From: Chitinophaga caseinilytica
Lineage (GTDB): Bacteria; Bacteroidota; Bacteroidia; Chitinophagales; Chitinophagaceae
Direction: 5' to 3'
Assembly (NCBI RefSeq): GCF_038396765.1
Contig: NZ_CP150096.1
Location: 1-64,000 of the forward strand
DNA: 64,000 nt
Shown here: positions 7,996 to 49,499 of the stretch, piece by piece
How the letters are laid out: each line of letters starts with the position of its first letter
Position numbering within the stretch: the stretch's first letter is position 1
The notes under the pieces: model-generated
The model's input: only the letters and a program-made list of their open reading frames with translations
Told to the model about the DNA's origin: nothing
Database searches by the model: none
Translations under genes and position numbers: made by a program

Positions 7996-8003
7996 AACCG
8001 GAA

Positions 8004-13515: not shown

Positions 13516-16500
13516 CTACCGGCCGTCGAAGTCGGGGAATCTCCAGAAGGCGAAGGAGGCCACCATATTTACTTTGTCGCCTGCTTTTTCGCCGCTGAAT
13601 ATATGGTAAACGAGCAAGGGCGGGGAACCTTCTGCCAGGGTGCGGTGTACGTTCAGCGATTCGTTGGTGTCGGTTTCGTCGTCGATCTGCACGCTCTTAG
13701 TGGTATCGAGCAGCAGGAATTTGGTGAGATCGACCACCACTTTCACGGTCTGGCCTTCCTTCTCGATGTTTGCCACTTTGGCTGCCGCGCCCAGCCTGGA
13801 GCCGCCGGTAGTTTTGGCAACGAAGAGCGCGCCGTAGCTGCGTTCCAGTATCCTGATCCCGTTCTTGTCGACCAACTTCCAGTCTACGGAATCGAGGTCT
13901 TTCTTCAGTGCTTCGTCTGTGGGGAATTCTTTCTCCATGGCGGCTTTCACGGCAGGGAGCTTGTAGAATTCCTCCAGTTTCTTCCGGGCTTCGTCGTCCA
14001 GTTTTTCCTGTGCCTTGCGTTCCCTTTCGGCTTTTTCGAAGGCTTCTACTGCTTTGGCTTTTTCATACACGCCGTCTTTTTCCAGGCCTTTCTTGTCGTA
14101 GACTTTCTGGGTAGTGCCGCCGCCGGCTTTCCCGTCGGCATGGATGCCAAGGGATTCCTGCAGGTCGTACACCGCGTTGGCGAATTCCTCGCTGCCTGCA
14201 TCGGTAGCGCCGGGCTGGAATATGTTGGGATCCCATCCGATGGCTTTCTGGTAGCCCTGGTTGGCTTTTTTGGCGTTGTCGTAGTTGATCTTGCGTTTTA
14301 CGTTTTTGAGGGCTTTGGCCAGGTCGATCTTTTCACCGGCTTTGGCGTTTTCGATACGTCTTTTCAGTTCTTCCGGTTTGAGGCCGGATTTGTTCATGGC
14401 TTCCACGATAGTTTTATAGTCTTCCGCGGTCATGGGTTTATCGCCTTGTTCGAACACTTTGTTCAGTTCGGCGAGGATCTCGTCTTTGTGTTCGGCTTCC
14501 CATTCCTGGCGGGCTTTCACCCATTTGGGATCGTTGGGATTGATCTTCCCGGCGTTTGCACCGATAGCGCCCACGCCGCCACCGCCGCCTTTGCCTTTCA
14601 CCATGCGCTTGCATTCCGCCGCTTCCGCGAGGTACGGTTTCAGCGGCGTACCCTCGAGCGTATCGATCATGAAATTATGCAGCTTTTCGCCTACGATCGC
14701 GTCCATCAGTGCGGCGGCCGCGGGTTTGGCGATATCGTTCTCGAAATAATCGGTGCGCATCAGCAGGTTGAGCCCCGCTTCGATCCCCAGTTGCGCCACC
14801 AGCCCCCAAAGGCAGCCCAGGCCGGGAGGCAGCCCGCACGACGCGATCTGGACGCCTAACCTAACGGCGATCTCCACCTTGCTAAGGATTTCCTGCCATT
14901 CGCGGATCTTGTCCACCGTGTCCGTGAACTCTTTGATGGTAGCTTCATGTTTTTCGATCTCCTTGTCGAACTTTTCCTTGAAGCTCATGATCTGGCAACA
15001 TTGCGGTTGCAGCTCCTTCGTGAGCTCGTCCGCTTTCTCCTCCAGGCCTTTCTCATATTTATTCACGATCACGCCGAGAATGCTGTTCATGCAATTCACG
15101 AACGACTGGAACGCGGATGCTATCATTTCCTTGAAAATGGCCGCTGCCAGCCGGATAATAACTTTGGTAGCGGTTTTCTTCCATCCGTCGAACGTGCCTT
15201 CCGTTTTCTGGTGTTCCGCCGCTTTCTCGCGATGCTTGCGGAACTTCTCGCGGATCTTGTGGAAAAACTCTTCGATCTTGTCGAACGTTTGCCCGAACTT
15301 GAATCGCAATGCGCCGAATATCCTTCCCCGGAAACCGCTCCAGAAGCGGATATCTTTCGCCTGCTTGAATTTTTTGGTCGTGTCGGCGGTGGATTTGATC
15401 CCCAGTTTCTTATCTACTTTCCCGCGTTTGAGTACACCTTTCGCTTCTTCTTTCAGGAATTTCTTCGGTTTTTCCTTCCCGCTTTTCCCCGTCACCCAAA
15501 CCTGCCGTTTATCTTCCCAGGCCTTGCCAGCGGCTTTCCAATCCGTTTTCGGCTCGCCTTGCCGCTGGATGCGTTTGGGGCCGAGCGCGGCGTTCATCGT
15601 GGGTTTCTTTTTGCGGAGGTCTTTCAGCAGCGGGTCCAGCTGTTGCAACTGGGCGTCTGCCGCTTCGGGGTAATTCGATTTGGTGTAGGGATGTTGGATA
15701 ATGAAATACACGGCGATGCCGTGACCCATGTTGTATAGCCAGATGCGTTGCGACGTATCTTTCTTGAGAACAGCGCCTGCGCCGGCCTTGGTGTATTCCG
15801 AATCGAACTTGCGATAGTTGAGGGCGTCGGGGATGAGAGGATCGAGGTTCATGGGCGATCCGGAAATGCTCGCGGGCGCGGGGGAGCCCACGTCTTTGTG
15901 CACCTGCGCCACAAACGCGGTGAAACCGTTGATGTAATGGCTTTGCTGGTCGAATCCGCCACCGATCGTATCTTTCGATCCCGGGAAATCGAACAGGAAC
16001 AGGGGCTTGATCTCGCCGATCTGGAACTTGGCGGGGAAGTTGGGCTTCCAGTCCCAGGTATCCGTTTTGGTATCGTATCTCGGGCCGATCTTGATCTGGT
16101 TGGAGCGCTGTTTCATTTCAAGGTACTTCACACCGCCTTTCTGGAAACCTTCGTAGCTGTATTTCACCTTGAGGGGAACGTCGTCTTCCCCATGGATCTT
16201 CGCCCGCACACCGGAAACAACGTGCCCGTCCGATTTATACAGGTCTGCATATCCCGCGCGGTTGAGCCCAACGCCCGTTCGCGTGGCGCCCGGCACGCCG
16301 GCTTCGGTGATCAGGTCGCCGTCTTTCCCGCGCATGACGGTTTGTATTTCGTTGTGCGCCCATTTGCCGAGCCGCTGGATTTTGGGCTGGATGGCGGAGC
16401 TGCCGGTTTGCTGCACCACGTGGGTAAGTTCGTGCGCCAGCAGCCGTTTGCCGGAAGACGACCGGCCGTCGAATTTATTCTGGTTGAAGTAAATGTCTGA

Positions 16501-17463
16501 TCCGTGCGTGAAAGCCTGGGCGTTGATGCTCGCCGCGAGGCTGGAGGCATTTGTGCCCTGGTGCACGCGCACATGACTAAAATCCTGCGCAAACCGCTGC
16601 TCCATGCCGCTGCGCACGTCTTGCGGCAAGGGTTGCCCACCACCTTTGGTAGACCTGAGCCCGGATTCGAACCCCGCGCCCACGCTCCATGCTCCGCCCG
16701 GCGCAGCTTTCGGGCTCACGGTCTCATCTGCCACATCCTTTCCCGGAGTAATGCCCGCCGCTTCGTCGTTCTCCGGCTCTTCCGTGGAAGTGTCTTCTTC
16801 CGTCTCCTCTTTCGACGCCTCCCCGATCTTGCATTCATCGCACTCCCGCTGGATCAGATTGCCGCCGGTAACGCTGGAATACGGCGACCGCTGCACTATT
16901 TCCTCCTTTTCGCAGGCGTCGCACTTTCTTTGCACAGGCTGGTCGTCGAGCCCGCAGGCCGCACATTTCCGTTGTATCGCATCCCCCGAACCTCCGCTGT
17001 ACGCCGATCTTTGTACCATATCTTCCTGCTCGCACGATGCACATTTCCGCTGCACCGGCTTTTCCTCCTCCGCTTCACAGGCCGCGCATTTGCGCTGTAC
17101 CACATCCAACGAACCACCGCCATACGACGATCTTTGTACCATATCTTCGGCATCGCAGGTTGCGCAAGACCGTTGCACCGCCATCGCCGGCGCGCCGGAA
17201 TATTCCCGCTGCACGAAATCGCCGGCGCCACCACCGGGCATTTCCGGCGGGGCAGACGGGTCGGGCGATCGCATGACCACATCGGCCACGGCATCGGCTT
17301 CCCGCTCGTGCGGATCGTCTGGCGGGCTCACTTCCAGCTTCGCCTGCACGGGCATGCCGCCGAAGAACGGACGCTCTTCGTGGCCGGTGCTTTCCGCGCG
17401 TTCCTGCGCAGGCTGGTTGCCGGGATGTACTTGCCCGATATGCGGTGCGGGGTTGGAATGCAT
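13516..17463 (-). CDS. Giant DUF4157 (eCIS_core) protein, putative injection-system cargo
   Basis: 1315 residues. Order: an N-terminal header (about 30-65) with VQAKLEVSPPDDPHEREADA; six CxxC motifs in QRKCAAC-type repeats (about 100-215); an acidic linker; the DUF4157/eCIS_core domain with HELTH at 344-348 (LLAHELTHVVQQTG). A long C-terminal region of no recognised family follows, including a hydrophobic/amphipathic stretch (about 770-810) and a helical Lys/Glu-rich part. A short segment near 1090-1125 (FANAVYDLQESLGIHADG) resembles a peptidoglycan-binding repeat. DUF4157 proteins are typical companions and likely effectors of extracellular contractile injection systems. It lies 5 nt after the chitosanase-like gene. 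Payload activity unknown. Confidence 0.8.
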   Translation of the reverse strand: MHSNPAPHIGQVHPGNQPAQERAESTGHEERPFFGGMPVQAKLEVSPPDDPHEREADAVADVVMRSPDPSAPPEMPGGGAGDFVQREYSGAPAMAVQRSCATCDAEDMVQRSSYGGGSLDVVQRKCAACEAEEEKPVQRKCASCEQEDMVQRSAYSGGSGDAIQRKCAACGLDDQPVQRKCDACEKEEIVQRSPYSSVTGGNLIQRECDECKIGEASKEETEEDTSTEEPENDEAAGITPGKDVADETVSPKAAPGGAWSVGAGFESGLRSTKGGGQPLPQDVRSGMEQRFAQDFSHVRVHQGTNASSLAASINAQAFTHGSDIYFNQNKFDGRSSSGKRLLAHELTHVVQQTGSSAIQPKIQRLGKWAHNEIQTVMRGKDGDLITEAGVPGATRTGVGLNRAGYADLYKSDGHVVSGVRAKIHGEDDVPLKVKYSYEGFQKGGVKYLEMKQRSNQIKIGPRYDTKTDTWDWKPNFPAKFQIGEIKPLFLFDFPGSKDTIGGGFDQQSHYINGFTAFVAQVHKDVGSPAPASISGSPMNLDPLIPDALNYRKFDSEYTKAGAGAVLKKDTSQRIWLYNMGHGIAVYFIIQHPYTKSNYPEAADAQLQQLDPLLKDLRKKKPTMNAALGPKRIQRQGEPKTDWKAAGKAWEDKRQVWVTGKSGKEKPKKFLKEEAKGVLKRGKVDKKLGIKSTADTTKKFKQAKDIRFWSGFRGRIFGALRFKFGQTFDKIEEFFHKIREKFRKHREKAAEHQKTEGTFDGWKKTATKVIIRLAAAIFKEMIASAFQSFVNCMNSILGVIVNKYEKGLEEKADELTKELQPQCCQIMSFKEKFDKEIEKHEATIKEFTDTVDKIREWQEILSKVEIAVRLGVQIASCGLPPGLGCLWGLVAQLGIEAGLNLLMRTDYFENDIAKPAAAALMDAIVGEKLHNFMIDTLEGTPLKPYLAEAAECKRMVKGKGGGGGVGAIGANAGKINPNDPKWVKARQEWEAEHKDEILAELNKVFEQGDKPMTAEDYKTIVEAMNKSGLKPEELKRRIENAKAGEKIDLAKALKNVKRKINYDNAKKANQGYQKAIGWDPNIFQPGATDAGSEEFANAVYDLQESLGIHADGKAGGGTTQKVYDKKGLEKDGVYEKAKAVEAFEKAERERKAQEKLDDEARKKLEEFYKLPAVKAAMEKEFPTDEALKKDLDSVDWKLVDKNGIRILERSYGALFVAKTTGGSRLGAAAKVANIEKEGQTVKVVVDLTKFLLLDTTKSVQIDDETDTNESLNVHRTLAEGSPPLLVYHIFSGEKAGDKVNMVASFAFWRFPDFDGR

Positions 17464-17468
17464 GTTGA

Positions 17469-18143
17469 TTACGGGATCGTTACGCCTTGCGTTTTAACCG
17501 GCTGATCGAGCATCCAGTTGCCTTTGTTCATTTCGTTCAGGAAAGTCTTGGTACGGTACACCGTGGGCCGCAACACCTTTTTCGGATGCGTGGCCAGCCA
17601 GTGCTGCCGCGTTTGGGTATAGGCGGAGATCCATGCTTTTTCATCGCCACCACGCAGGGGCGTCCGCTCCGCGAACCGCGCGCGCAGAAATCCCGGAACG
17701 GTGCCGGAATGGATGAAACTGTCGTAAATCACCAGCAAGCTCAAAGGCAATGCAAACTGTTCGGCGAGGAAAAAGTGCATGGCCGGGGCGAAATACAGGA
17801 TCTCGAAAGTTTCATCCTGCGCCTGGCGCATCAGCGGGTCTTGCTGGGCACTCACTTTCAGGAGGCGCTTGAATTCCTTGTCGTCTACCAGCGGCACCGT
17901 CCCGATCTTGGGCAGGTACTGCCGGAAAGCGTCCGCGAACATACCGTTCAGGTCTATGTATCGCCCGATGAGATTGCGGAGATTCCCCTGCTCGGTGGTC
18001 TGGCTGCGGCCATAGGTGATCTGGCGCGAGCCGTGCCGCCCGTCGGGGAAAATGGCGATCGCGTCGTATTCGCCTTCGGCCGATCCCGTTTCGAACACGT
18101 TCACGATGGCAATGATCTTCTGTTTGATAGCTGGAGTAATCAT
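17469..18143 (-). CDS. GH46 chitosanase-like enzyme in the injection-system operon
   Basis: 224 residues, no signal peptide. The sequence follows the glycoside hydrolase 46 pattern: FETGS with a candidate general acid Glu18, then FPDG with candidate nucleophile-activating Asp34. The substrate-groove signature ITYGRSQTT, DPLMRQAQDETF, YFAPAMHF and the helix LLVIYDSFIHSG follow. GH46 enzymes hydrolyse chitosan, and the lysozyme-like fold could also act on peptidoglycan-type glycans. It lies between the AAA+ ATPase (18 nt gap) and the giant DUF4157 protein (5 nt gap). This suggests a cargo, a wall-penetrating enzyme or a release lysin of the injection system. The role is inferred from position. 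Confidence 0.68.
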   Translation of the reverse strand: MITPAIKQKIIAIVNVFETGSAEGEYDAIAIFPDGRHGSRQITYGRSQTTEQGNLRNLIGRYIDLNGMFADAFRQYLPKIGTVPLVDDKEFKRLLKVSAQQDPLMRQAQDETFEILYFAPAMHFFLAEQFALPLSLLVIYDSFIHSGTVPGFLRARFAERTPLRGGDEKAWISAYTQTRQHWLATHPKKVLRPTVYRTKTFLNEMNKGNWMLDQPVKTQGVTIP

Positions 18144-18161
18144 GATGAAATTATTGATGGG

Positions 18162-19526
18162 TTATTTTCCTTCTTTTTCCAGTTCGCGCTTCACGCCGCG
18201 CAACACGTCTGCATGCCCGATCTGGGGGCTCCCCCTGTCCAGCGCCTGCAAACACACATATTGCACCACGTTCAGTATGTGCGACCCCGTTAGCTCGAAC
18301 TGCTCCGCGATCGCCTTGAGGTCCACATCTTTCTGCAGCTTCGCCGCCGCCGGGAACGCTTTCTTCCACAACAGCAACCGGTCTTCCGCCCGTGGCGGCG
18401 GGAAATAAATGATGGAATTGAACCGGCGGATGAACGCATCGTCCATATTGTTCTTGAAGTTGGACGCCAGGATCGTGAGGCCGGCGTGGCTTTCGATCCG
18501 CTGCAACAAATACGACACTTCCTGGTTGGCGTACTTGTCGTGCGCATCCCTGACGCCGGTCCGCTTGCCGAACAGGGCGTCGGCTTCGTCGAAAAACAGG
18601 ATCCACGATTTATCCTCCGCCTTGTCGAACAACGCGGACAGGTTCTTTTCCGTTTCTCCGATGTATTTGGACACTACCGACGACAGGTCTACCCGATACA
18701 CATCGCGCCCCGTGTATTTGCCGAGGAGCGTGGCGGTGAGGGTTTTGCCCGTTCCCGGCGGACCGTAAAACAAGGCCCTGTATCCGGGTTTCAGTTTCCT
18801 GCCCATGTTCCAGTCCTGCATCAGCGCGCCCTGGTGCGTGATCCAGCTTTCCAGTTCGCGGATCTGGGAGCGCACGCCGTCGGGCAGCACGAGATCGTCC
18901 CATTCCAGCAGCGTTTCGATGTATTCTGCGGGGAATTGCATGCTGAGTTTCGGGCGGGCGATCCGGCCGGTCATGAACACTTCCGCATATTCCGGGTCGG
19001 CCATGAGTCGGCCGCTGAGCGCGGGTTCCCCGGCGCGGACGGGCTCCAGCGACAATATCCGGCTCCTGAACAGATAGCTGCCATCCCCGAAAAGCGGCAG
19101 CAGCCTGAGCCTTAGCCCGGCGTCGTTGCCGGCGAGGAGGAACATGGCCGTTTCTCCGGTCGGTAAAGTACCGCGGTGATGATTGCCTTTCATGCCGCCG
19201 AATTCCGGGAATTCGCCGCCCTGCGGGAGGTACGATTGCACGATGTTATCGAAGAAACCCGCTACCACGCCGGGCGCCAGGGCACAGGCGAGCAGCAGCA
19301 GTTCTTCGGAGGCGAGCTCCGCATGGCGGACGTACCGTGCAAATGAGCTGTCGTCGCTTTCCGCGGGCACGGGCGCATCGGGACGGGTGAAGGGGGTTTG
19401 GCGGAAGTGGTTTTCCAGCCGCGCGAGGGTAAAGGCTTTGAGGAATTCGAGGGTATGAACGAGGAAGGGTTCCTGCAGGCCATTGCCGGAAGCGCGCGGG
19501 GGTTTTATGTTGGATGTTTTAAGCAT
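18162..19526 (-). CDS. AAA+ ATPase of the contractile injection system (Afp15-like)
   Basis: 454 residues from the ATG at 19526, which overlaps the stop of the preceding gene by 8 nt. The C-terminal AAA+ core has Walker A GPPGTGKT (about 255-262), Walker B ILFFDEAD (about 309-316) and an arginine-finger region DDAFIRRFNSIIYFPPP. The N-terminal 230 residues are a family-specific domain. Afp15/PVC15-type ATPases are constant members of eCIS loci and are needed for particle assembly or cargo loading. A longer frame to 19607 would run into the preceding gene and is less likely. Confidence 0.9.
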   Translation of the reverse strand: MLKTSNIKPPRASGNGLQEPFLVHTLEFLKAFTLARLENHFRQTPFTRPDAPVPAESDDSSFARYVRHAELASEELLLLACALAPGVVAGFFDNIVQSYLPQGGEFPEFGGMKGNHHRGTLPTGETAMFLLAGNDAGLRLRLLPLFGDGSYLFRSRILSLEPVRAGEPALSGRLMADPEYAEVFMTGRIARPKLSMQFPAEYIETLLEWDDLVLPDGVRSQIRELESWITHQGALMQDWNMGRKLKPGYRALFYGPPGTGKTLTATLLGKYTGRDVYRVDLSSVVSKYIGETEKNLSALFDKAEDKSWILFFDEADALFGKRTGVRDAHDKYANQEVSYLLQRIESHAGLTILASNFKNNMDDAFIRRFNSIIYFPPPRAEDRLLLWKKAFPAAAKLQKDVDLKAIAEQFELTGSHILNVVQYVCLQALDRGSPQIGHADVLRGVKRELEKEGK

Positions 19527-20970
19527 ATGCGGTTCCTCCGTCTTCTGATGGGTTTGCGGGCCGTTCCGGGAAATCGCCCGGCTCTCGCTGCGGTGTGGGG
19601 AAATCACCCAGTTCCACCTTGCAAAGCTCGATGCCCGGGTCGTCGTAAATAACGGATACGTTGGATTGGGGGATGCGCAGCATGATGGCCACCTGTTCGC
19701 GGAATAAATTGAAATGCCGCAGGCGCGCCGCTTCCGCGGGATTGTTCATGATGCCGCCCCCTACGTCGCGGAAGCCTCTGCGGCCGCCGGTGGCGTAGTT
19801 CGTACCGTTGGTGGTAAAATATTCTTCGGCGTTGCCGATCATATGACCGAATTCGTGGGTGATGTCTGTCCTGTCTGCCGTTCCCCAATCCGTCATGCTC
19901 GACGTTCCGCCTACGCCGGCCCGCCCGCCGGTAGTGCCGCCGGCGCCTTGCGGGTTGATGGAATAATGCGCGTCGGCTGCTCTCCGCTGCCATTGAATAT
20001 CCACATGGATGGGCATTTTGCAGGGGCCGAGCCTTGGTTGCACGGGCTGTATCCGCAGGTACATATGGTTGCTCCACCTGCTCTCGATCGCCGCGGCCCA
20101 GGCTCTTTGTACAGCAGGCGTGGCCGTGGAATGGAGGCGCATGATGAGATTGGCCCGTCCGCGCAGCGCGTCCAGCACAATGTTGAATCTCGATGTCCAG
20201 TTGAAAGTACCGTTCCAGGCGGCGTAAGCGGCAGGTGCACCGGAAATGGTTTCCGTCCGGGCTTCAGACACCTCGCGCGATTGCCGCAGGCGGAACGGCC
20301 ATTGGTAGCGTTGGATTTTTTTACGTGCCAGCGTACCGCGCTGCTGTACCACATGCGTGAGCTCGTGCGCCAGCAATTGGCGGCCGGCATGGCTGTGGGG
20401 CGCGTATTCCCCATCGTTGAAGAAAATATCGTTGCCGGTGGTGAAGGCCCTGGCGCTGAGGTTCCTGCTGAGCTGGCCGGCGTCTCCGCCGGCATGCACG
20501 CGCACATTCCCGAAATCGCTGCCGAAGCGGTTTTCCATGAACCCGCGCGTTTCGGCGGGCATGGGCTGTCCGCCGCCGCGCATGCCATTGATGGCGCTTT
20601 CCGTTCCCGCGCCCACGGCGGGCGCCGGCGTGTCTCCGGAACGGTGGGCCTCTTCTTCCCCTTCGCAGGCCGCGCATTTGCGTTGCGCAGCGGGCACCGT
20701 CACCGGCGTGATCCGGTCGGCCAGGGGCATGCGGTGCAACTTTTCGTCTTCCTGCTCACAGGCGGCGCATTTCCGCTGCACGGAAACGCCGGCTCCGCCG
20801 AAAGTGGCCTGGGGCGCGGGCATCCGCATCACATGGTCGGCCATCGCGTCTGCCTCTTTCTCATGTGCGTCTCCCGGCTCGTTGACGGCGAGCTTGGCCT
20901 GGAAGAACGGCATCCCGCGCGGAGCGGCGGCATGAGCGGCCGCCGGGGTCGCGCTTCTTTCCTTTTTCAT
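19519..20970 (-). CDS. DUF4157 protein with C-terminal metzincin-like protease domain
   Basis: 483 residues. It begins with a header like that of the giant DUF4157 protein (FFQAKLAVNEPGDAHEKEADA). Two QRKCAAC CxxC modules follow (about 65-110), then the DUF4157 domain with HELTH at 202-206. The C-terminal part has a second zinc-protease motif, HEFGHMIGNAE (from residue 372). Further on, a Gly-Gly-Ile-Met-Asn stretch looks like a metzincin Met-turn. The third ligand position holds Glu rather than the usual His/Asp. It is immediately upstream of, and overlaps, the AAA+ gene. Likely an injected protease effector; the protease assignment is from motifs only. Confidence 0.78.
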   Translation of the reverse strand: MKKERSATPAAAHAAAPRGMPFFQAKLAVNEPGDAHEKEADAMADHVMRMPAPQATFGGAGVSVQRKCAACEQEDEKLHRMPLADRITPVTVPAAQRKCAACEGEEEAHRSGDTPAPAVGAGTESAINGMRGGGQPMPAETRGFMENRFGSDFGNVRVHAGGDAGQLSRNLSARAFTTGNDIFFNDGEYAPHSHAGRQLLAHELTHVVQQRGTLARKKIQRYQWPFRLRQSREVSEARTETISGAPAAYAAWNGTFNWTSRFNIVLDALRGRANLIMRLHSTATPAVQRAWAAAIESRWSNHMYLRIQPVQPRLGPCKMPIHVDIQWQRRAADAHYSINPQGAGGTTGGRAGVGGTSSMTDWGTADRTDITHEFGHMIGNAEEYFTTNGTNYATGGRRGFRDVGGGIMNNPAEAARLRHFNLFREQVAIMLRIPQSNVSVIYDDPGIELCKVELGDFPTPQREPGDFPERPANPSEDGGTAYA

Positions 20971-21076
20971 CCGGATGCATTTTAAGTTTCGTCAAAAGCC
21001 GCACGCCACATGGGCGCGCGGCTTCATGAGTCCTCCTGTGATAAAAGGGCGCCGGCATATCCGCCAGCCTTCCCTC

Positions 21077-23413: not shown

Positions 23414-23436
23414 GATATGTGTGTTTTAAAAAATTT

Positions 23437-28369: not shown

Positions 28370-28375
28370 GATATA

Positions 28376-29449: not shown

Positions 29450-29467
29450 GATGCAAGTTTTTTAGGA

Positions 29468-32740: not shown

Positions 32741-32741
32741 G

Positions 32742-33143
32742 TTATTTTTCGGTTAGATAGAACGGGTAAACAAGGTTGTGGCGCGCATTGGTGCTTCTGA
32801 TCGTGTAATCGACGATGATGATCACTTTCCCGGCTTCGGCGGGGTCTTGCTGCAATACTACTTTATTGAGCTGGATGCGCGGTTCATACACGATCAATGC
32901 GGTTTCGATTTCCGACTGGATGGCCGTAGCCGTGGTGGTGCCGAGGGATTCGAAGATCCAGCGGTCCCTTTTCCAGCCGAAAGAGGGTTGCATCACCCGT
33001 TCCCCCAATTCGGTGGAAAGAACGATCGAGATGCAGCTTTCGATGTCGGCTTCGGCATCGAGCATTTTTACCGACTTGTCCTGTTTGGAGAAACTGGGCG
33101 GGAAGCTCCAGCCTCTTCCGAGAAATGCGTTTTCCTGGGGCAT
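32742..33143 (-). CDS. GPW/gp25 family baseplate protein
   Basis: 133 residues. The family pattern is clear: LGRGWSFPPSF near the start, then ADIESCISIVLSTELGERVMQPSFGW with the conserved EPR motif in ALIVYEPRIQL. gp25-like proteins sit in the inner baseplate, have a lysozyme-like fold without activity, and form the first sheath-contacting ring. It is directly upstream of baseplate J (stop and start 1 nt apart). Confidence 0.92.
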   Translation of the reverse strand: MPQENAFLGRGWSFPPSFSKQDKSVKMLDAEADIESCISIVLSTELGERVMQPSFGWKRDRWIFESLGTTTATAIQSEIETALIVYEPRIQLNKVVLQQDPAEAGKVIIIVDYTIRSTNARHNLVYPFYLTEK

Positions 33144-33161
33144 AACAAATCTTTTTAAACG

Positions 33162-33452
33162 TTAACCGCCGATCATGACGGTAGGGCATCCGATGGCGAT
33201 GGAACCGCCGTGCGCCGTGCTGTCTCCCATCCGCGCCGCGGGCATCCCGCCGATCATCACGGTGGCGGAGCCTTTCACCACGGAATCCGGCGGACCGGTA
33301 CACGTGCACATATCGCCCACGCGCAGGGCCGGCATCCCGCCGATCATCACGGTAGCGCCACCGGGAGGCAGTGCGGGCCCGCCTACATGCGGCACCGTTC
33401 CTGTTACCATGGGGCAAATGTGCATATCGCCCACTCTTGCGGCCATTGACAT
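33162..33452 (-). CDS. PAAR-domain spike tip protein
   Basis: 96 residues built from PAAR motif repeats: AARVGDMHICP, ALRVGDMCTCTG and AARMGDSTAHG, with ATVMIGGMPA linkers. PAAR proteins form a sharp cone, bound to metal, that caps the spike and pierces the target envelope. The gene starts 6 nt after the VgrG-like spike stop, as in other eCIS and type VI loci. No C-terminal toxin extension is present. Confidence 0.93.
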   Translation of the reverse strand: MSMAARVGDMHICPMVTGTVPHVGGPALPPGGATVMIGGMPALRVGDMCTCTGPPDSVVKGSATVMIGGMPAARMGDSTAHGGSIAIGCPTVMIGG

Positions 33453-33458
33453 AATCGG

Positions 33459-35195: not shown

Positions 35196-35968
35196 TTTCC
35201 ATCTTTTTTAACAGGCGGAAAGAATATTTCGGAACCTTCCTTCAACCTGCGGAAATTGTACATTTTGTTCGCCCGCGCCACTTCGATGTAAGTATCCGGT
35301 GTTCCGTAAATGTCCTGGCACAGCAGCTGGATATTGTCTCCGGCGATCACCTGGCGAACGTGCGTGAGGTCTGGCGAGCTTTTCACTTCCTTCTTCTCCC
35401 GCAACATATCCTCGATCGAACCTTCGAAACCTGCGCGGGCTTCGGCGCGCAACGGCGTACCGTCGGGCTTGAAGAGTTTGTAGGTGATGGACAGCGTGCT
35501 CAAAACGCCCGTGAACACGAGCTTTCCCCAATTCAGCTGTACACGCCGCGGCCGGTGCTCCTTTCCTTCGAACAGATACACCACTTTCGCGAATTTCTGC
35601 AACTCGGTCATCACGTCGTATTCATCGCCGCCGGCGATGAGGTCTGCAATGGCACCGGCGATGGGCACATTGTCCAGCGGACCGGCCGGTTTCGGCACCA
35701 CGCCCGTTCCGTCGAACAGGAACGTGAATTCCAGTCCGGGCGGCGAGGTATGTGTGTACCGGGCTACCGATCCGGAGTTGCCGGGTGCGGGGCGGCGGTT
35801 GTAATTGACGCGGTAATTGATCGCGTAATTGTCCGGGTTTACCTGCACCATGTACTTGTCGCCGTCGGCATCGCTGAGAACGGGTGTGTCCTTGGCTTTC
35901 GTTGTGGGCTTGAAAGCGCGGATGATCATTTTCTCCAGCTTTCCGCCGCCAAATACGGATTCGAGCAT
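35192..35968 (-). CDS. CIS tube adaptor protein with C-terminal LysM domain (Afp7-like)
   Basis: 258 residues. The N-terminal domain (about 10-180) is the CIS tube-adaptor type (MVQVNPDNYAINYRV, PGLEFTFLFDGTG, FTGVLSTLSITYKLF). The C-terminal LysM (about 205-252) has VIAGDNIQLLCQDIYGTP and a FRRLKEGSEIFFPP ending. Such gp53-like proteins connect tube and spike to the baseplate. It sits between DUF5908 and the spike gene, with a 4-nt overlap with the latter. Confidence 0.9.
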   Translation of the reverse strand: MLESVFGGGKLEKMIIRAFKPTTKAKDTPVLSDADGDKYMVQVNPDNYAINYRVNYNRRPAPGNSGSVARYTHTSPPGLEFTFLFDGTGVVPKPAGPLDNVPIAGAIADLIAGGDEYDVMTELQKFAKVVYLFEGKEHRPRRVQLNWGKLVFTGVLSTLSITYKLFKPDGTPLRAEARAGFEGSIEDMLREKKEVKSSPDLTHVRQVIAGDNIQLLCQDIYGTPDTYIEVARANKMYNFRRLKEGSEIFFPPVKKDGK

Positions 35969-35969
35969 G

Positions 35970-36158
35970 TTAACGTTCTTTTTGTTTCTTCAATAATCGC
36001 ATGACCTCTTCGGTGCATGCCGCCACGATCTGCTGAATATCGGGTTGGGACGAGGAGGTGGCGCCTCCGCCAGATGATGTTCCCGCAGGGCCGGATTGTC
36101 CTGATTGGGGTTCTTCGACCCTGGCGCGGATCACGAGTTCCCGGATTTCGATGGGCAT
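35970..36158 (-). CDS. DUF5908 family small eCIS protein
   Basis: 62 residues. It starts MPIEIRELVIRARVEE, the typical DUF5908 beginning. A Gly/Ser-rich linker follows, then a short helix (IQQIVAACTEEVMRLLKKQKER). Members are found in Bacteroidota eCIS loci between the tube and LysM genes, as here. The function is unknown; size and location suggest a small tube or baseplate adaptor or chaperone. It ends 1 nt before the LysM gene start. Confidence 0.82.
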   Translation of the reverse strand: MPIEIRELVIRARVEEPQSGQSGPAGTSSGGGATSSSQPDIQQIVAACTEEVMRLLKKQKER

Positions 36159-36170
36159 ACGCGGTGGTTT

Positions 36171-36683
36171 TTAGATGCCGATATTGACGTCGAGCGAGGC
36201 AGTGAGCCCTGCGGCCAGGTCCAGCCCGACGCTGATGGGGTCGTAGTACTTGAAATACTGGTAGGAAAGCGTCAACGTTTCCACGACGATCTCGTTGTTG
36301 CCCGCGTTGAAGGAGCTGACTTCGAGTTTTTTGGGGATGGCGTTGATGAGGTACCAGTTATACAGCGGTACATGATCGGCGTTCATCAGGGAAATGAGGA
36401 CGTTGCTGGGTTTGAACCGGAATTCTTCCAGGCCTTGCCGTGCCCAGTGTAGCACGCCGGAGCCGAGCATTTTTCCGCGTTTCAGCGTTACGTCACCAAA
36501 TTTGGAGCGAACGGGGAGGTTGTGCACGAAGCGGTGCTCGCCGCCTTCGGCTACGGTTTCCATCTCCAGGTCCACCGAAAGACCAGACACTTCCTGGAAG
36601 CGCACGTCTTGCGGGAATTGCGGAATGATCTCGAAAAGGACGAGGAAATGAAAACCGACCTGTGGGGTGTCAAAGGCAGACAT
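36171..36683 (-). CDS. Phage tail tube (gp19-like) protein, second copy
   Basis: 170 residues of the T4 gp19/Hcp-like tail-tube family: FHFLVLFEIIPQFPQDVRFQEVSGL, then VTLKRGKMLGSGVLHWA and VVETLTLSYQYFKYYDP. It is longer at the C-terminus than the upstream tube protein. In AFP-type particles the second tube protein forms the first tube layer(s) contacting the baseplate (Afp5-like). That role is assigned here by order. Confidence 0.9.
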   Translation of the reverse strand: MSAFDTPQVGFHFLVLFEIIPQFPQDVRFQEVSGLSVDLEMETVAEGGEHRFVHNLPVRSKFGDVTLKRGKMLGSGVLHWARQGLEEFRFKPSNVLISLMNADHVPLYNWYLINAIPKKLEVSSFNAGNNEIVVETLTLSYQYFKYYDPISVGLDLAAGLTASLDVNIGI

Positions 36684-36686
36684 ATG

Positions 36687-37118
36687 CTATTCGTTTTGGA
36701 TCACCAGGCCTTCATGTGCCAGTTCGATGGATTCTATGGCTACTTCGTTGCCGTCAGATTTGAGGTCTGAGCTTTGCACCTTGATCGGCCATGCATTTTT
36801 GACTTTCCATACTACCACGGGCTCGTGGTTTTCGTTCAGCAGGCTGATGGTGACGTTGCGCCGTTCGATGGTGTTGAGCGCCACGGTGTTCCACCAGTCG
36901 TAGAACTGATTATCACCTTTAAAAGTGCCGCGTTTCATGGTGATGTTGCTGTATTTGACCATGCCCGGCATTTTTGTTTTGACATATTCCGGGCTGGCAC
37001 CGTCGCGGTACTCGATCGGGTCTATCTGGACGTCGAGGCCGGATACTTCTGTGAACCCGATGTTTGCCCCACCCCATTCAACCTGGAAGTGGAATTTGGG
37101 AAGCGGATAATTCGCCAT
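36687..37118 (-). CDS. Phage tail tube (gp19-like) protein, probable main tube
   Basis: 143 residues, gp19-like: FHFQVEWGGANIGFTEVSGLDVQIDPIEYRDG, then ITMKRGTFKGDNQFYDWW and VAIESIELAHEGLVI. This compact form is like the major inner-tube proteins Afp1/Pvc1. It directly follows the second sheath gene and precedes the longer tube gene by 3 nt. Confidence 0.9.
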   Translation of the reverse strand: MANYPLPKFHFQVEWGGANIGFTEVSGLDVQIDPIEYRDGASPEYVKTKMPGMVKYSNITMKRGTFKGDNQFYDWWNTVALNTIERRNVTISLLNENHEPVVVWKVKNAWPIKVQSSDLKSDGNEVAIESIELAHEGLVIQNE

Positions 37119-37149
37119 AACTCATTTTTTTATTGAATGGATGATTGAA

Positions 37150-39171
37150 TCAGGATTCCTGCATTTTGTGGCTGAACCGGAGCACGATGAATTCCGCAGG
37201 ACGAACGGCAGCCATTCCGATCTCCACGATCAGCCGGCCCTCGAGGATGTCTTGCGCGGTCATCGTTTCACCGAGGCCCACTTTTACGTAAAACGCCTGT
37301 TTGGTGGTGGCACCGGCCAATGCGCCCTGGCGCCATTGCAGCGTCAGGAAGTTTTCGATCATGGCGCGGATGCGCACCCAGGTGTTGGCGTCGTTGTTTT
37401 CGAATACGAAAGGCTCCGATGCTTTTTTGGTCGATTCTTCCACATAATTGAAGAACCGGCGGACGTTCACATATCGCCATTCGTTATCGTTGCCGGCCAT
37501 GGTCCGTGCGCCCCAGACGAGGATGCCCTTGCCCGTGAACGCCCTGATAGCATTTACGCTCTTTCCGTTGTCGTTCACGTTCAGGCCGCTTTGCTCCAGG
37601 TCGTTCAGTTTGACGGCAGGCGCCACTACGCTGCGGAGGCTCATATTGGCAGGGGCTTTCCACACACCGCGGGTACGGTCTGTAGTGGCATACACGCCGG
37701 CCACGGCGCCCGAAGGCGGCAGGTAGCTCATCTCCAGTTTCACCCGGTCGTTCACCGCTTTAAAAAACGGGTGTTGGGTGAACAGGAGCGTTTCGGCATT
37801 GTCTGTACGATTGATCGCATCCTGCAACACGGCCATAAAGGCATCGGCTATTTTTTCGAAAGCCTTGTGAAGGGTAACGGAGTTGGCCACGTTCTGAACG
37901 GTTGCCAGTGGCGTGGGCCCTGAATACGGATTCATTTCCGGCTGGATGGTGGTAACGTTGGCGCCGGCAATCCAGTCGGTTGTGCTGATATCGGTATAAT
38001 CGGTATGCACCATGGCTTCGGTGCGCGGCGGTGCGGGGAACGATCCGAGCACAGCGGCGTTTTTCTCGAAAGAAACGAGATTGACGAGTTGTAAACGCAG
38101 ATCGGTGTTGGCTTTCAGTTTGTTCAGCACGATCGTCATGTCGGGCGTGTTCCCTCCTTCAATTTCCAACCGCCGCATGGCCAGCGCCACATTACGGACA
38201 AAAGTTATCAGCGGAACGAAGGCTGTGCGGGCATTTGCCACCGTAGTTGCCGTCATGACGCCCAGGCGGAGGGTTTCGAGATGTGCGCTAATAGGATTGT
38301 AGTTGCTGCGATTGAGCACCGGCGCGGGGATCTTGGAGAATACTCTCCCCTCTTCAACAAGCCGGTCGCGCAGCGTTTGCACCATCGTGCTCAGCGCGGG
38401 AATGATGTTATTGATCGTAGCAGGAGGAATGGCCACGTTCCCATTGTCGATGAATGCCAGCTGGGTAAAAAGCAGTGATTTCGGGTACGACGATTGCAGC
38501 CAGGGATAATATGCCGCGGCATATTTCAGCTCCTGGTTGCCGGCGCGGTCGCGGAAATTCCCAATCGGGTTTTCGGCGTGATTCAGGGGAAGTTGTCCGC
38601 CGGGGATGTCGAGGATCGCGAAGCGGTCCTGCAATTTCGAGCATTGCTGGATGGCGGCCTGGTGGAAGTTTCCGGCGTTCGTGAAATCGGGCGTGCCGTC
38701 GCCTTCTTTCAGCGCACCGGTGTCTGGCGCGCAAATGAGCGTGGGCTCGTCTTCCCGCGCAATGGCGGCCAAACCGCCGAGCAGGCCTGTAGTGGCGTTG
38801 CCGAGCGTCACATCTGTCGTGAAATTCCCAACGGAAACCACGTAGCAGGGGCCGCCACCGTTATCGAAGAAATGCTGCATGGCGTCGAACAGGAAAAACT
38901 TCCGTCCGTTTACCGGCGTTACCGTCGCGATATTATTCTGTGCGTCCAGCTTTACGGTGTAAGTGGCGGGCGTGTAAGCGCCGCCGAAAAGCGATGTAAA
39001 ATCCAGCATCGACGTGAGGCGGATGGGCCGGTTGATGAGGGTTTTACCCGCGGCATCGGCCGTGAGGGCGGTGTGGCCGATGAATGCGGGGATGGCTGTG
39101 GCCACCGCCGCTACGGAGGGCGGTATCAGCGAAAGTTCTTCGACGAATACGCCTGGGGTTTTATAATCCAT
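37150..39171 (-). CDS. Tail sheath protein, long paralogue
   Basis: 673 residues of the contractile sheath family. The N-terminus is YKTPGVFVEELSLIPPSVAAVATAIPAFIGHT. The C-terminal sheath core has KGILVWGARTMAGNDNEWRYV, FNYVEESTKKASEPFVFE, FYVKVGLGETMTAQDILEG and PAEFIVLRFSHKMQES. About 190 extra residues in the middle, compared with its neighbour, probably form a surface domain. Sheath contraction drives the tube. The last roughly 170 residues are nearly identical to those of the 482-residue sheath upstream, suggesting duplication or gene conversion. Confidence 0.93.
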   Translation of the reverse strand: MDYKTPGVFVEELSLIPPSVAAVATAIPAFIGHTALTADAAGKTLINRPIRLTSMLDFTSLFGGAYTPATYTVKLDAQNNIATVTPVNGRKFFLFDAMQHFFDNGGGPCYVVSVGNFTTDVTLGNATTGLLGGLAAIAREDEPTLICAPDTGALKEGDGTPDFTNAGNFHQAAIQQCSKLQDRFAILDIPGGQLPLNHAENPIGNFRDRAGNQELKYAAAYYPWLQSSYPKSLLFTQLAFIDNGNVAIPPATINNIIPALSTMVQTLRDRLVEEGRVFSKIPAPVLNRSNYNPISAHLETLRLGVMTATTVANARTAFVPLITFVRNVALAMRRLEIEGGNTPDMTIVLNKLKANTDLRLQLVNLVSFEKNAAVLGSFPAPPRTEAMVHTDYTDISTTDWIAGANVTTIQPEMNPYSGPTPLATVQNVANSVTLHKAFEKIADAFMAVLQDAINRTDNAETLLFTQHPFFKAVNDRVKLEMSYLPPSGAVAGVYATTDRTRGVWKAPANMSLRSVVAPAVKLNDLEQSGLNVNDNGKSVNAIRAFTGKGILVWGARTMAGNDNEWRYVNVRRFFNYVEESTKKASEPFVFENNDANTWVRIRAMIENFLTLQWRQGALAGATTKQAFYVKVGLGETMTAQDILEGRLIVEIGMAAVRPAEFIVLRFSHKMQES

Positions 39172-39198
39172 ATCCGTTCAGATTAACAGATGAAAGTA

Positions 39199-40647
39199 TC
39201 AGGATTCCTGCATTTTGTGGCTGTACCGCAACACGATGAATTCCGCCGGCCTCACCACGGCCATTCCAATCTCTACGATCATGCGGCCTTCGAGGATGTC
39301 TTGCGCGGTCATCGTCTGTCCCAGTCCCACTTTCACGTAAAATGCGTGTTCCGGTTTGGCGCCTGCCAGCGCGCCTGCGCGCCACTGGAGGATGAGGAAG
39401 TTCTCGATCATGGCGCGCACCTTCACCCAGGTGTTGGCGTCATTCGGCTCGAACACGAAGGGTTCCGAAGCTTTTTTGGTCGATTCTTCCACCATATTGA
39501 AAAACCGGCGAACGCTCACATAGCGCCATTCGTTATCGTTGCCCGCCAGCGTGCGCGCGCCCCATACGAGGATGCCTTTTCCGCTGAAAGACCGTATGGC
39601 GTTCACGCTTTTGCCGGTGGTGTGAACGTTCAGGTTTTCCTGCGCATCGTCGCTGAGCGTCACCATGGGTTTACGGACGAAGCGGAGGCTCGTGTTGGCG
39701 GGGGCTTTCCACACGCCGCGGGTAGCGTCTACCGTGCAATACACACCGGCGATGGTGCTGCTCGGCGGCATTACGACCGGCATATCCGCGATCGTATTTT
39801 TGATCTGGTGGTACAGTTTATTGGCGACGTGGTACAGTGAATTCTGTTCGGTGGCCGGGGTGGGATTGAAGAGCCGCAGTACCATGGCGCCCGGCACGGG
39901 ATTGCCGTTCAGCGAACCGGTGATGGTTACGGCTTCTTCGTTGTAATTCAATGTGAGCGAGGTTTCCAGGTGCGGATAGTAAGCCGCTCCATAGAGCAGG
40001 TTGTTGTTGCCGATGAGCATCCGGAAGCCATTGGCGTTATCGTCGATCACGTTGGTATTGGCGGGATTGGTGTAATCGAGATGACCGTTGAACACGTCCA
40101 TGATCACGAACCGGTCTTTCAAATCCGCGCACTGTGCGAGCGCGAGGCTGTTGAGATTGTAGAAATCGCCCTGGGGGAGGATTTGCCCGTCCGGAAACAC
40201 CAGCAGCGTGGGCTCGTCTTCTTTGGCGATGGCGGCGAGGCCGGCGGTGTAGTTACCGATGGTGGCGGCCGGAGGGGTGGCCGTATCCGGCCCGATAGAC
40301 ACGATGTAGCAGGGGCCGCCGCCGTTGGAGAAGTACATCTGCATGGCATAGTACATTCTGAAAAGCGCCGCCGGAGCGGCGGGGGGCGTGGCTACGACGT
40401 GTGTTCCGTTAACGGTGTTGACGGCAGCGGTGAAAGTTTCGAGCCTGGCGCCGAAGATGGCTTCGTACTCAACGAGCGAAGTAATCCGTACCGGCTTGTT
40501 GACCAGCGTGTTGCCATTGAGCGTGGTGAGCCGGGTGTAGCCGATGAAGGCCGGGATGGCGGTTTCCACCTGGGCTACAGACGGCGGGAACTTGGGTACC
40601 TCGTCGATGTAAACGCCGGGTGTTTTAAGGTTTGCTAAGTTTAACAT
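39199..40647 (-). CDS. Tail sheath protein, short paralogue
   Basis: 482 residues. It has the same family signature as its neighbour: LKTPGVYIDEVPKFPPSVAQVETAIPAFIGYT at the N-terminus, KGILVWGARTLAGNDNEWRYV and a PAEFIVLRYSHKMQES C-terminus. This length is typical of a simple sheath subunit, likely the main sheath (Afp2-4-like). It is the first sheath gene after the cap and unknown genes, 27 nt before the long paralogue. Confidence 0.93.
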   Translation of the reverse strand: MLNLANLKTPGVYIDEVPKFPPSVAQVETAIPAFIGYTRLTTLNGNTLVNKPVRITSLVEYEAIFGARLETFTAAVNTVNGTHVVATPPAAPAALFRMYYAMQMYFSNGGGPCYIVSIGPDTATPPAATIGNYTAGLAAIAKEDEPTLLVFPDGQILPQGDFYNLNSLALAQCADLKDRFVIMDVFNGHLDYTNPANTNVIDDNANGFRMLIGNNNLLYGAAYYPHLETSLTLNYNEEAVTITGSLNGNPVPGAMVLRLFNPTPATEQNSLYHVANKLYHQIKNTIADMPVVMPPSSTIAGVYCTVDATRGVWKAPANTSLRFVRKPMVTLSDDAQENLNVHTTGKSVNAIRSFSGKGILVWGARTLAGNDNEWRYVSVRRFFNMVEESTKKASEPFVFEPNDANTWVKVRAMIENFLILQWRAGALAGAKPEHAFYVKVGLGQTMTAQDILEGRMIVEIGMAVVRPAEFIVLRYSHKMQES

Positions 40648-40662
40648 GATCGGTCATTTTAA

Positions 40663-41415
40663 TCAGGTTCTTTGAAAATTTATGCTGTATTCCCGTGGCT
40701 GAGGAGCCAGGTGCCAGGCTTGTTTGAATATGTCGATCACACCGCAGACGTCGGCCGTGGCGGCAGATTGGTCGAACACTACTTTTTCCTGCAGGGGCGC
40801 TCCGCCTTCGAGCCTTACCACATAAGCTCCGCGCGGGTGTGGACGCAAATCCAGGCCCGTACGGTCTTGCAGGGGTGTCACGGTTTCGTTGAGGGTGAAG
40901 GAAACGGGGGCTCCGGCGGTGATTTTTCCGGCGCGGATCTGGTTGAAGGCGCCGGGGGTTACTTTGTGCGACAGGAGGTATCCGCTGAGGGCGCCGTTTT
41001 CGTTGTTGCCTGCATTGGCGGCGGCGGTGAGGGCTACTACGTTTCCTGCGAGGTTCGCATCGATGACGCCGGCAGGTGTAAGATTGCAGGCGTAGAAGAT
41101 GCGGCGCCCCAGTTGCTGGGACCCCTGCTCGAAAAAATCGGGCAATGCTGCCCGGGATTTGTCGATGATCAGCCAAAATGTGAACTGCACCGGCTGCGTG
41201 AGCGCGGTGGCGGGAGCCCATGTCACGCCATTGAAATATTGTTTGCAGAAGGCGGTGAGCCCTCCGGGGGAGGAACGGATGAGCAGACCGAAACTGGCCG
41301 CAGTAGCGGCACTGAGCGGCGCCATTTCCAGGCGGACGCCCTCGCCGGGGTCTGCGTTGTTGATACGGATGCGTATCCTGAATTCCGGGGTGTAACGCCA
41401 AACCAGTTTTTCCAT
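40663..41415 (-). CDS. Unknown protein between cap and sheath genes of the eCIS
   Basis: 250 residues from the ATG at 41415 (MEKLVWRYTPEFRIRIRINN); an in-frame TTG at 41427 is possible. I do not recognise a family. It is beta-rich with short strands (FTFWLIIDKSR, RIFYACNLTP, PVSFTLNETVTPLQD), has no signal peptide and no membrane segment, and ends in LAPQPREYSINFQRT. It lies 51 nt after the Pvc16-like gene and 15 nt before the first sheath gene, so it is almost surely part of the particle or its assembly. A second cap, plug or collar component is a fair guess. Confidence 0.72.
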   Translation of the reverse strand: MEKLVWRYTPEFRIRIRINNADPGEGVRLEMAPLSAATAASFGLLIRSSPGGLTAFCKQYFNGVTWAPATALTQPVQFTFWLIIDKSRAALPDFFEQGSQQLGRRIFYACNLTPAGVIDANLAGNVVALTAAANAGNNENGALSGYLLSHKVTPGAFNQIRAGKITAGAPVSFTLNETVTPLQDRTGLDLRPHPRGAYVVRLEGGAPLQEKVVFDQSAATADVCGVIDIFKQAWHLAPQPREYSINFQRT

Positions 41416-41466
41416 GGCTTGAATCAATGGGGTTTATCAGTAACGGGTTTTTCGATTGCGCTTTTT

Positions 41467-42057
41467 TTATTGCTGGGCGCCCAGCACCTGCGTTTGCAGG
41501 TTGATCTCCGAAACGATGCCGGAGCCGGATTGCGGTGCGTCCTGGATCACGGCCATGCGCATTTTATAGATGACAGACGGGATGTACTTCCCTCCCATCA
41601 CGCTCCACAACTGGTTCAATTCCTCGAACCGGGTGGAATATAAATCGAAGATGACGCGGTTCAATTGCAGCGTTCCCAGCACGGGCGTGTCTGCCGGCGT
41701 GAAAACGAACTGCCGCTGAAAAAACGCGATCACCTGCGAAATGCGCTGCAGGGCCGTGCTGTAGGTGTTCTTGTTTGCGCTGACCAGGATGAACACATTG
41801 AGATGGATCTCGGGTTGGCGCTCTACGACTTCCGGGATACCGTTGTTATACACGGTGCGCCGGAAAGGCAGGTTGCGCAAAGTTTCCTCCTGCTGAATAT
41901 TGACGACGGATACAACGATCTTGTCGCTCAGATTCTGCGAAGGCGTTTCCTGGAAAGCGTCCGCGAACGAAATGTTGCCGAGGATGACTTCCGGGTCTAA
42001 CGTACCGATATATGTGTTCAACTTACTTACGATCGCGCTCAAAACCTGATCGATCAT
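41467..42057 (-). CDS. Pvc16/DUF4255-like tail terminator (cap) protein
   Basis: 196 residues. MIDQVLSAIVSKLNTYI, IVVSVVNIQQEETLRN, EIHLNVFILVSANKNTYSTAL and LQRISQVIAFFQRQ match the Pvc16 N-terminal/DUF4255 family. Members cap the far end of the tube and sheath in AFP/PVC-type particles. It is the first gene of the minus-strand eCIS run and therefore lies nearest the operon promoter; no clear TAnnTTTG element was found in the 250 nt before it. Confidence 0.85.
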   Translation of the reverse strand: MIDQVLSAIVSKLNTYIGTLDPEVILGNISFADAFQETPSQNLSDKIVVSVVNIQQEETLRNLPFRRTVYNNGIPEVVERQPEIHLNVFILVSANKNTYSTALQRISQVIAFFQRQFVFTPADTPVLGTLQLNRVIFDLYSTRFEELNQLWSVMGGKYIPSVIYKMRMAVIQDAPQSGSGIVSEINLQTQVLGAQQ

Positions 42058-49335: not shown

Positions 49336-49487
49336 TCCTGCAATCCCCTTCCAGACGGATGCAACCATACTATCAGCCCATGCCCTGCGAACAGCGGGTC
49401 CATGGGCTGAATCTTTAACAACCGATCCACAAATGCGGCACCGAACGGCCATCCGGGCCAGTGAGGCCGCGACAACGCAGATTGACG

Positions 49488-49495
49488 TACCTTTG
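49488..49495 (+). promoter_or_regulatory. Candidate -7 element for queE (leaderless)
   Basis: TACCTTTG followed by CACC and the ATG at 49500. The arrangement is nearly the same as at folD. Confidence 0.5.
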
Positions 49496-49499
49496 CACC

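Follow-up and report, generated by a model that had tools for sequence, protein, structure and literature searches.

The first 64,000 nucleotides of the Chitinophaga caseinilytica genome (contig NZ_CP150096.1 of assembly GCF_038396765.1, forward strand; hereafter the window), which is a single contig of 6.52 Mb, contain a contractile injection system (CIS) locus of 20 minus-strand genes that runs from 42057 down to 13516. The open reading frame (ORF) listing, Pfam matches over the curated cut-offs and matches to Protein Data Bank (PDB) chains together identify a full CIS gene set. Such machines are common in the genus; of greater interest is a VWA-domain protein, predicted to be exported, that together with a short S74 fiber marks one sub-lineage of these loci. 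From the upstream to the downstream end, the genes are as follows (aa, amino acids).

41467..42057, minus strand: cap/terminator, Alg16A-like, 196 aa (Pvc16_N PF14065, E 8.5e-34)
40663..41427, minus strand: 254-aa protein, candidate counterpart of Alg16B, the cap adaptor of AlgoCIS (by position only; likely start 41415)
39199..40647, minus strand: sheath protein 1, 482 aa (PF17482, E 3.8e-13; PDB All3325, E 5.5e-164, and AlgoCIS sheath, E 1.7e-157)
37150..39171, minus strand: sheath protein 2, 673 aa (PF17482, E 4.2e-15)
36687..37118, minus strand: inner tube protein (gp19), 143 aa (PF06841, E 1.8e-50)
36171..36683, minus strand: second gp19-type tube protein, 170 aa (PF06841, E 5.4e-35)
35970..36158, minus strand: plug protein, Alg6-like, 62 aa (PDB Algo6, E 3.5e-7; Asl3322, E 9.4e-6)
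35192..35968, minus strand: CIS_tube/LysM-type adaptor, 258 aa (PF19266, E 1.7e-44)
33459..35195, minus strand: VgrG-like spike, 578 aa (Phage_base_V PF04717, E 1.3e-20; PF05954, E 2e-7)
33162..33452, minus strand: PAAR tip, 96 aa (PF05488, E 3.3e-22)
32742..33143, minus strand: gp25 baseplate wedge, 133 aa (PF04965, E 9.8e-21)
29468..32740, minus strand: baseplate J/Alg11-like protein, 1090 aa (PF04865, E 1.7e-9; the Alg11 name by place)
28376..29449, minus strand: short fiber with S74 intramolecular chaperone, 357 aa (PF13884, E 1.6e-12)
25043..28369, minus strand: baseplate protein, Alg12/All3315-like, 1108 aa (PDB All3315, E 1e-56; Alg12, E 1.3e-53)
23437..25050, minus strand: tape measure protein, 537 aa (CIS_TMP PF19268, E 1.3e-90)
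21077..23413, minus strand: 778-aa VWA protein, predicted to be exported, carrying a C-terminal membrane helix and RRKKK (VWA_2, E 2.6e-12)
19519..20970, minus strand: cargo 1, DUF4157/eCIS_core, 483 aa (PF13699, E 1.7e-33)
18162..19607, minus strand: AAA+ ATPase, Pvc15-like by place (PF00004, E 3.1e-27; likely start 19526)
17469..18143, minus strand: GH46 chitosanase-type enzyme, 224 aa (PF01374, E 1.7e-14)
13516..17463, minus strand: cargo 2, DUF4157/eCIS_core, 1315 aa (PF13699, E 1.4e-31)

All of these ORFs are uninterrupted and adjoin one another through short overlaps or gaps of at most 106 bp, the widest lying between 20970 and 21077. An earlier note on this DNA had proposed a complete CIS in one minus-strand run over 13516-42057, and that description stands, with Pfam matches far beyond chance: the cap, both sheaths, both tubes, the spike, PAAR, gp25, baseplate J, the tape measure and the AAA protein all pass the Pfam cut-off, as do the two DUF4157 proteins at the 3' end (PF13699) and the chitosanase-like enzyme (GH46). 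Its two large baseplate proteins are also present, the 1090-aa one by Pfam and the 1108-aa one, which has no Pfam match over the cut-off, by its PDB matches. Three details need correction or completion. The 62-aa plug gene at 35970-36158 was missing from the gene list; the proposed LysM adaptor exists as the 258-aa tube-adaptor gene, in which Pfam shows CIS_tube and no LysM; and neither phmmer nor profile searches of the PDB gave a convincing match for the 254-aa protein, which has no Pfam or NCBIfam match either. The start of this last gene is likely at 41415, and that of the AAA gene probably at 19526, because close relatives start there (the AAA+ ATPase is 454 aa in the closest relatives). 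The inner tube protein is 97.9-100% identical across three relatives, and the 170-aa gp19-type protein would, by its place, be the tube initiator.

By sequence, the locus appears to belong to the AlgoCIS/tCIS family, whose solved members nearest to it include one free extracellular CIS (eCIS) and one thylakoid-anchored CIS (tCIS). Sheath 1 matches Anabaena All3325 and the AlgoCIS sheath ahead of Afp/PVC chains (best 1.2e-64), with no MAC or T6SSiv chain named among the PDB matches of the sheath or the baseplate protein. An Afp/PVC-type assignment was rejected, the sheath and baseplate matches to that type being weaker than those to AlgoCIS/tCIS, and the layout departs from the classic Afp/PVC one, just as the earlier note had said. 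With AlgoCIS of Algoriphagus machipongonensis the locus shares its sheath, baseplate and plug by sequence, its cap by size (Alg16A is 197 aa; PMC8894135), and a pair of DUF4157 proteins, one with two HExxH motifs; the AlgoCIS DUF4157 proteins, one of which likewise has two HExxH motifs, have been shown to be tube cargo (PMC8894135). In gene content and gene size, the two loci differ in that AlgoCIS has a 1443-aa Alg19 where the 357-aa S74 fiber is found here, in the GH46 enzyme and VWA protein added in the window, and in the cap adaptor Alg16B, which is without a sequence match here, a gene being in its place. The ORF listing shows no unassigned Alg19-sized gene. The Anabaena tCIS provides the best PDB match for sheath 1 (All3325) and for the Alg12-like protein (All3315), as well as a plug match (Asl3322). 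It differs in its host and in the Cis12 connector, region 610-1100, which its authors treat as an extension (PMC8894136): this region is unmatched here, the aligned blocks stopping at All3315 residue 541 and restarting at 1156, and tCIS-style anchoring through Cis12 was therefore rejected as having no counterpart by sequence.

CIS loci as such are ordinary for Chitinophaga because 74 of the 79 genomes examined have CIS_TMP, and because eCIS have been reported in 89% of sequenced Chitinophaga (Geller et al., PMC8213781). Across the family Chitinophagaceae, 62 of 294 genomes match CIS_TMP at E 0.001, 61 of them over the cut-off. In 57 of 60 Chitinophaga loci, a counterpart of either cargo was matched among the ORFs downstream of the tape measure gene, so that the window locus resembles those of its genus in both respects.

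The VWA protein, which the earlier note had recorded as one extra among several, is indeed present, and in addition is predicted to be exported and anchored and is fixed to one CIS sub-lineage. By hydropathy rules, a signal-like N-terminus and a C-terminal membrane helix occur in 15 of 15 aligned rows, and residues D166, S168, S170, T252 and D279, together with a GLPxWxxW anchor, are invariant across the same number of rows. An AlphaFold2 model shows a VWA fold, with helices at residues 5-26 and 755-776. Sequence and model thus point to a protein that is exported, membrane-anchored and outward-facing, with few cytoplasmic residues; rather than forming part of the particle, it would leave the cytoplasm by the Sec route and be held by its C-terminal helix in the envelope of the producer itself. 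The literature searched, which did not extend to supplementary tables and most subscription journals, yielded no account of a VWA protein in CIS loci that is exported and anchored, and no AlgoCIS chain was listed among the PDB matches of the S74 or VWA proteins.

This topology is at odds with existing annotation of VWA domains in eCIS loci, which have been counted (as PF00092) among likely anti-eukaryotic toxin domains (PMC8213781) or associated with eBAP4 fiber proteins (PMC12923769). The former annotation would favor viewing the protein as a cargo toxin; the signal-like N-terminus and C-terminal helix in every aligned row speak against that role, as does the lack of a DUF4157 match, and we consider it very improbable.

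The VWA gene is also tightly bound to its position. It adjoins CIS_TMP in 17 of the 18 genomes with a match below 1e-30, the exception being G029 (G-numbers denote sampled genomes, G000 being that of C. caseinilytica, and L-numbers loci). Named relatives that match the VWA protein are Chitinophaga rhizosphaerae T16R-86 (97% identity over the best segment), a Chitinophaga metagenome-assembled genome (76%) and Chitinophaga sp. E66 (88%). At E 1e-15, matches occur in three of 294 Chitinophagaceae genomes, all three Chitinophaga, and at E 1e-8 in three of 395 genomes of the phylum, namely C. caseinilytica itself, G402 and G489 (weak). The G402 match, at G402:C3:127782-129494, is a related 1483-aa frame from a different family; CIS_TMP gave no match in that genome (the search controls were likewise silent), and the VWA module seems, by sequence, to occur outside CIS loci too. 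Two further observations concern gene integrity and copy number: in L039 (G023) a tandem pair of VWA genes follows the tape measure, the second lacking the C-terminal membrane helix, and in G064 and G046, whose assemblies are 65% and 80% complete, VWA and/or tape-measure genes are split over several frames, presumably through sequencing errors or decay.

To place the protein within its genus, one CIS locus was read in each of 60 other Chitinophaga genomes, on the downstream side in all 60 and on the upstream side in 59 (not G052). Thirteen of the 74 genomes with CIS_TMP are left out of this sample (G013, G016, G022, G031, G033, G038, G039, G046, G058, G059, G064, G066 and G072), of which G064 and G072 have a VWA gene after the tape measure and the other 11 have no VWA match below 1e-30; second tape-measure loci in sampled genomes are likewise outside it. 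In 15 of the 60 loci, the gene directly past the tape measure encodes a protein that is hydrophobic near its N-terminus and ends in a helix with basic tail. Fourteen of these are VWA proteins, and the remaining one, a 441-aa protein in G073, has the same topology with no blastp match to window proteins and no VWA domain in Pfam (CARDB below cut-off). The 59 loci fall into three classes by S74 gene: it is short (343-411 aa) in 15 and long (559-582 aa) in 16, and in the other 28 the window's S74 protein finds nothing by blastp at 1e-3. All 15 short-S74 loci (16 of 16 with the window) encode the anchored protein, and none of the 16 long-S74 or 28 no-S74 loci does. The short-S74 loci sampled also have an Alg12 of 936-1117 aa with no large gene behind it; among the 44 other loci, none of which has the anchored protein, 36 have an Alg12 of at least 1900 aa, an additional gene of 950-1511 aa behind it, or both, and eight have neither. 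One recurrent arrangement among these 44 appears to be a second Chitinophaga CIS type (L087, L089, L096 and similar), with a long S74, an Alg12 mostly of about 2200-2400 aa and then a gene of about 1040-1085 aa. The PDB matches of the window S74 protein fall within the S74 region (best E 2.2e-7). With respect to the fiber helix of tCIS, hydropathy rules flag no membrane helix in the G042 S74 protein, which is 97% identical to that of the window, and a C-terminal hydrophobic stretch, unlike in other short S74 proteins, in the 411-aa S74 protein of L083 (G073).

These data bear on whether the VWA protein is connected with the particle at all. The locus could encode a plain free eCIS, and the VWA protein could be a common type of adhesin on the producer's surface, inherited with the operon and unlinked to the particle. 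Consistent with such an arrangement, adhesins often combine a VWA fold with Ig-like domains: Foldseek lists first, for the model, the pilus protein PitA (E 2.8e-12, with a TM of only 0.18), and the VIA list holds generic VWA folds, portions beyond residues 156-515 being barely probed. The related 1483-aa frame in a genome without CIS_TMP match and the near-restriction of VWA loci to one clade point the same way. Against it, the VWA gene keeps its slot while identity falls to 26-30% and the neighboring cargo genes change, and, across the loci read, its coupling to the short S74 gene is strict. We therefore regard an unlinked adhesin as possible, if doubtful.

A second question is whether the particle works at the membrane of its producer. 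The earlier note had called the locus an eCIS rather than a type VI secretion system (T6SS). The T6SS reading was rejected, as the genome has no VipB match in a search with a positive Escherichia coli control (TssJLM and the Bacteroidota TssN-R were not searched for); the further step from missing TssJLM to an extracellular system does not follow. Neither T6SSiv nor the haloarchaeal system is known to possess TssJLM as such. Published CISs with an established or proposed action at the producer membrane, achieved without the usual T6SS complex, include tCIS (PMC8894136), the haloarchaeal T6SS (PMC11566945), the Streptomyces CIS with CisA (PMC12237407) and T6SSiv (mentioned in PMC13314943 and PMC12210884). 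Because CISs of this kind are in print, absent TssJLM cannot decide the mode of action.

By analogy with CisA and haloarchaeal Hbor_38620, each a membrane protein tied genetically to a CIS group that lacks a known membrane complex (PMC12237407, PMC11566945), the particle might dock at the inner membrane of the producer through the VWA protein and fire there or from ghost cells. In keeping with this idea, a clade-wide membrane protein lies beside the baseplate and tape-measure genes in all 15 short-S74 loci (16 with the window, against 0 of 44 others), an unrelated protein of equal topology takes its place in G073, the nearest PDB relative of the sheath belongs to a membrane-anchored CIS, and the locus has no extra gene of Alg19 size. 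The resemblance ends at the cytoplasmic side, where no baseplate-binding domain was found: CisA and Hbor_38620 have sizable cytoplasmic domains in the published descriptions, whereas the predicted cytoplasmic part of the outward-facing VWA protein is only RRKKK, leaving little for a cytoplasmic baseplate to hold. The tCIS connector region of Cis12 is likewise unmatched, and the cargo set is AlgoCIS-like. Docking at the inner membrane accordingly appears unlikely. Slightly less likely still is a distinct cell-bound mode, neither T6SS nor free eCIS, in which a sub-lineage without the long fiber would carry its adhesive module on the anchored VWA protein and, with the short S74 fiber, tether particles to the cell or ghost.

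The reading that we favor, and consider probable, is that the locus encodes an AlgoCIS-like particle with DUF4157 cargo and, more tentatively, that the VWA protein is an adhesin or tether in the producer envelope, tied to the short S74 fiber. The locus would make one contractile particle, its core parts recognizable by homology, that presumably assembles in the cytoplasm. By analogy with AlgoCIS and Pvc15, the AAA protein would assist the entry of both DUF4157 cargos into the tube via their disordered N-termini, and the S74 domain would trimerize a short fiber standing where other loci have long ones. On contact, sheath contraction would drive the VgrG-PAAR tip and cargo through the target envelope. 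The GH46 enzyme, lacking a signal peptide, most likely travels as cargo or acts at cell lysis and would cut a chitosan-like wall polymer. The VWA protein may most plausibly serve as adhesin or tether for the short-S74 fiber, keeping particle, ghost cell and target together; it could act either as an adhesin beside a free eCIS or as the tether of a cell-bound CIS, a membrane-tethered mode being possible.

Several observations weigh against this reading. The signal and membrane-helix calls come from hydropathy rules and from low-confidence ends of the model, whose predicted local distance difference test (pLDDT) values are 49-63 in blocks at residues 1-30 and 741-760, and the AlphaFold2 model of cargo 1 has a mean pLDDT of 46.6, too low to be usable for assigning this protein an enzyme class. 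In a VgrG tree, the 15 VWA loci group together with support 87/93, below the tool's star, and the VWA label needs two changes (1-3 in bootstrap); a Fisher p of 2.5e-14 for the coupling is not a fair test because the VWA loci form one such group. The short-S74/VWA loci mostly represent one old lineage, not 16 independent events, and co-occurrence of the two genes may reflect common descent alone, G073, the only unrelated replacement, being a long branch of unsure place. In addition, 45 of the 60 Chitinophaga loci have no anchored protein, so the CIS machine in general does not need it, and none of 20 loci from other Chitinophagaceae has an anchored protein or S74 match among the ORFs listed (three of these loci are cut or unreadable upstream of the tape measure).

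Membrane-partner genes are a current clue to how one CIS family switches between modes that are free, cytoplasmic or membrane-bound (PMC12237407, PMC11566945), and the short S74 fiber and predicted exported VWA protein offer a defined gene pair, in a soil genus, with which such switching would become testable.

Selection on the accessory genes was compared between the window genome and its relative G042 using a simple Nei-Gojobori count of nonsynonymous and synonymous rates (dN and dS). The dN/dS ratio is 0.057 for the VWA gene, 0.049 for S74 and 0.087 for GH46; structural genes range from 0 to 0.29, the looser ones being the plug (0.18), sheath 2 (0.18) and the tape measure (0.29). In more distant pairs the VWA ratio is 0.14 (G037) and 0.13 (G035), at dS over 1. 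Between G000 and G042, dS is 0.05-0.34 in 19 of the 20 genes and 0.94 in cargo 2, where identity is 97% over the first 60 residues and 42-83% in later 60-residue blocks; this pattern suggests that the cargo 2 allele has most likely been exchanged by recombination among close relatives, with a presumed loading signal kept.

Cargo 2 contains six QR[KSE]CxxC repeats and an HELTH motif at 344. Cargo 1 has HELTH at 202 and a second HExxH (HEFGH at 372) in its C-terminal part, and its profile gave no match to the PDB; it is kept full-length in six relatives (66-97% identity), and identity drops past the DUF4157 region in five more distant loci. QRKCxxC-type repeats stand in the N-terminal linkers of both cargos and, in the downstream parts that were read, in 25 of the 55 ORFs with an HE[LF]THV motif; they perhaps have a metal or redox role. 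PADLOC returned no match for four accessory proteins.

Inspection of the surroundings revealed housekeeping genes on both sides. Pfam identifies LptF/G, tgt, gidB, radical SAM and M1 peptidase ORFs in one flank and glyoxalase, TP_methylase, PurS, CDP-alcohol transferase, aminopeptidase P and PEPCK in the other, ORFs 7992-9152 and 48457-49527 being without any Pfam match. No capsid, terminase or integrase was listed by Pfam in the locus or in 29 flanking ORFs (small ORFs left out), in agreement with the earlier note that this is not a prophage; with these flanks and no phage head, terminase or integrase in the scans, the prophage reading was rejected. In a phage collection, 158 records match the sheath at E 1e-5 and none reaches 80% query coverage. 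ARAGORN found no tRNA in the window, and no -33/-7 pair of the Bacteroidota promoter type was found on the minus strand in the 263 nt that precede the cap gene or in 13001-42400. In the genome as a whole, sheath C-terminal domains are confined to the CIS locus (two genes), which also holds two of the three eCIS_core domains. The third belongs to a DUF4157 protein (525-aa frame) at G000:C1:5238066-5238296, far from the locus; two larger ORFs near this gene (3.2 kb) are not CIS-like by eye, no search aimed at them having been made.

The GH46 enzyme matches PDB chitosanases (best E 4e-13), and E18 and D34, read off the PDB alignment as the catalytic Glu/Asp pair, are invariant in 7 of 7 aligned rows. 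Hydropathy flagged no signal peptide in its counterparts in relatives. A text search of the literature for CIS together with chitosanase found the word only in the reference list of one paper, and CIS together with Glyco_hydro_46 found none. A CIS-linked GH46 would hint at chitosan-bearing targets, for example fungi. The CIS enrichment described for Rhizoctonia-suppressive soils (PMC10959553) is in Proteobacteria. GH46 occurs in 23 of 79 Chitinophaga genomes, within or adjoining a CIS locus in 20 of the 23, the exceptions being G023, G043 and G061.

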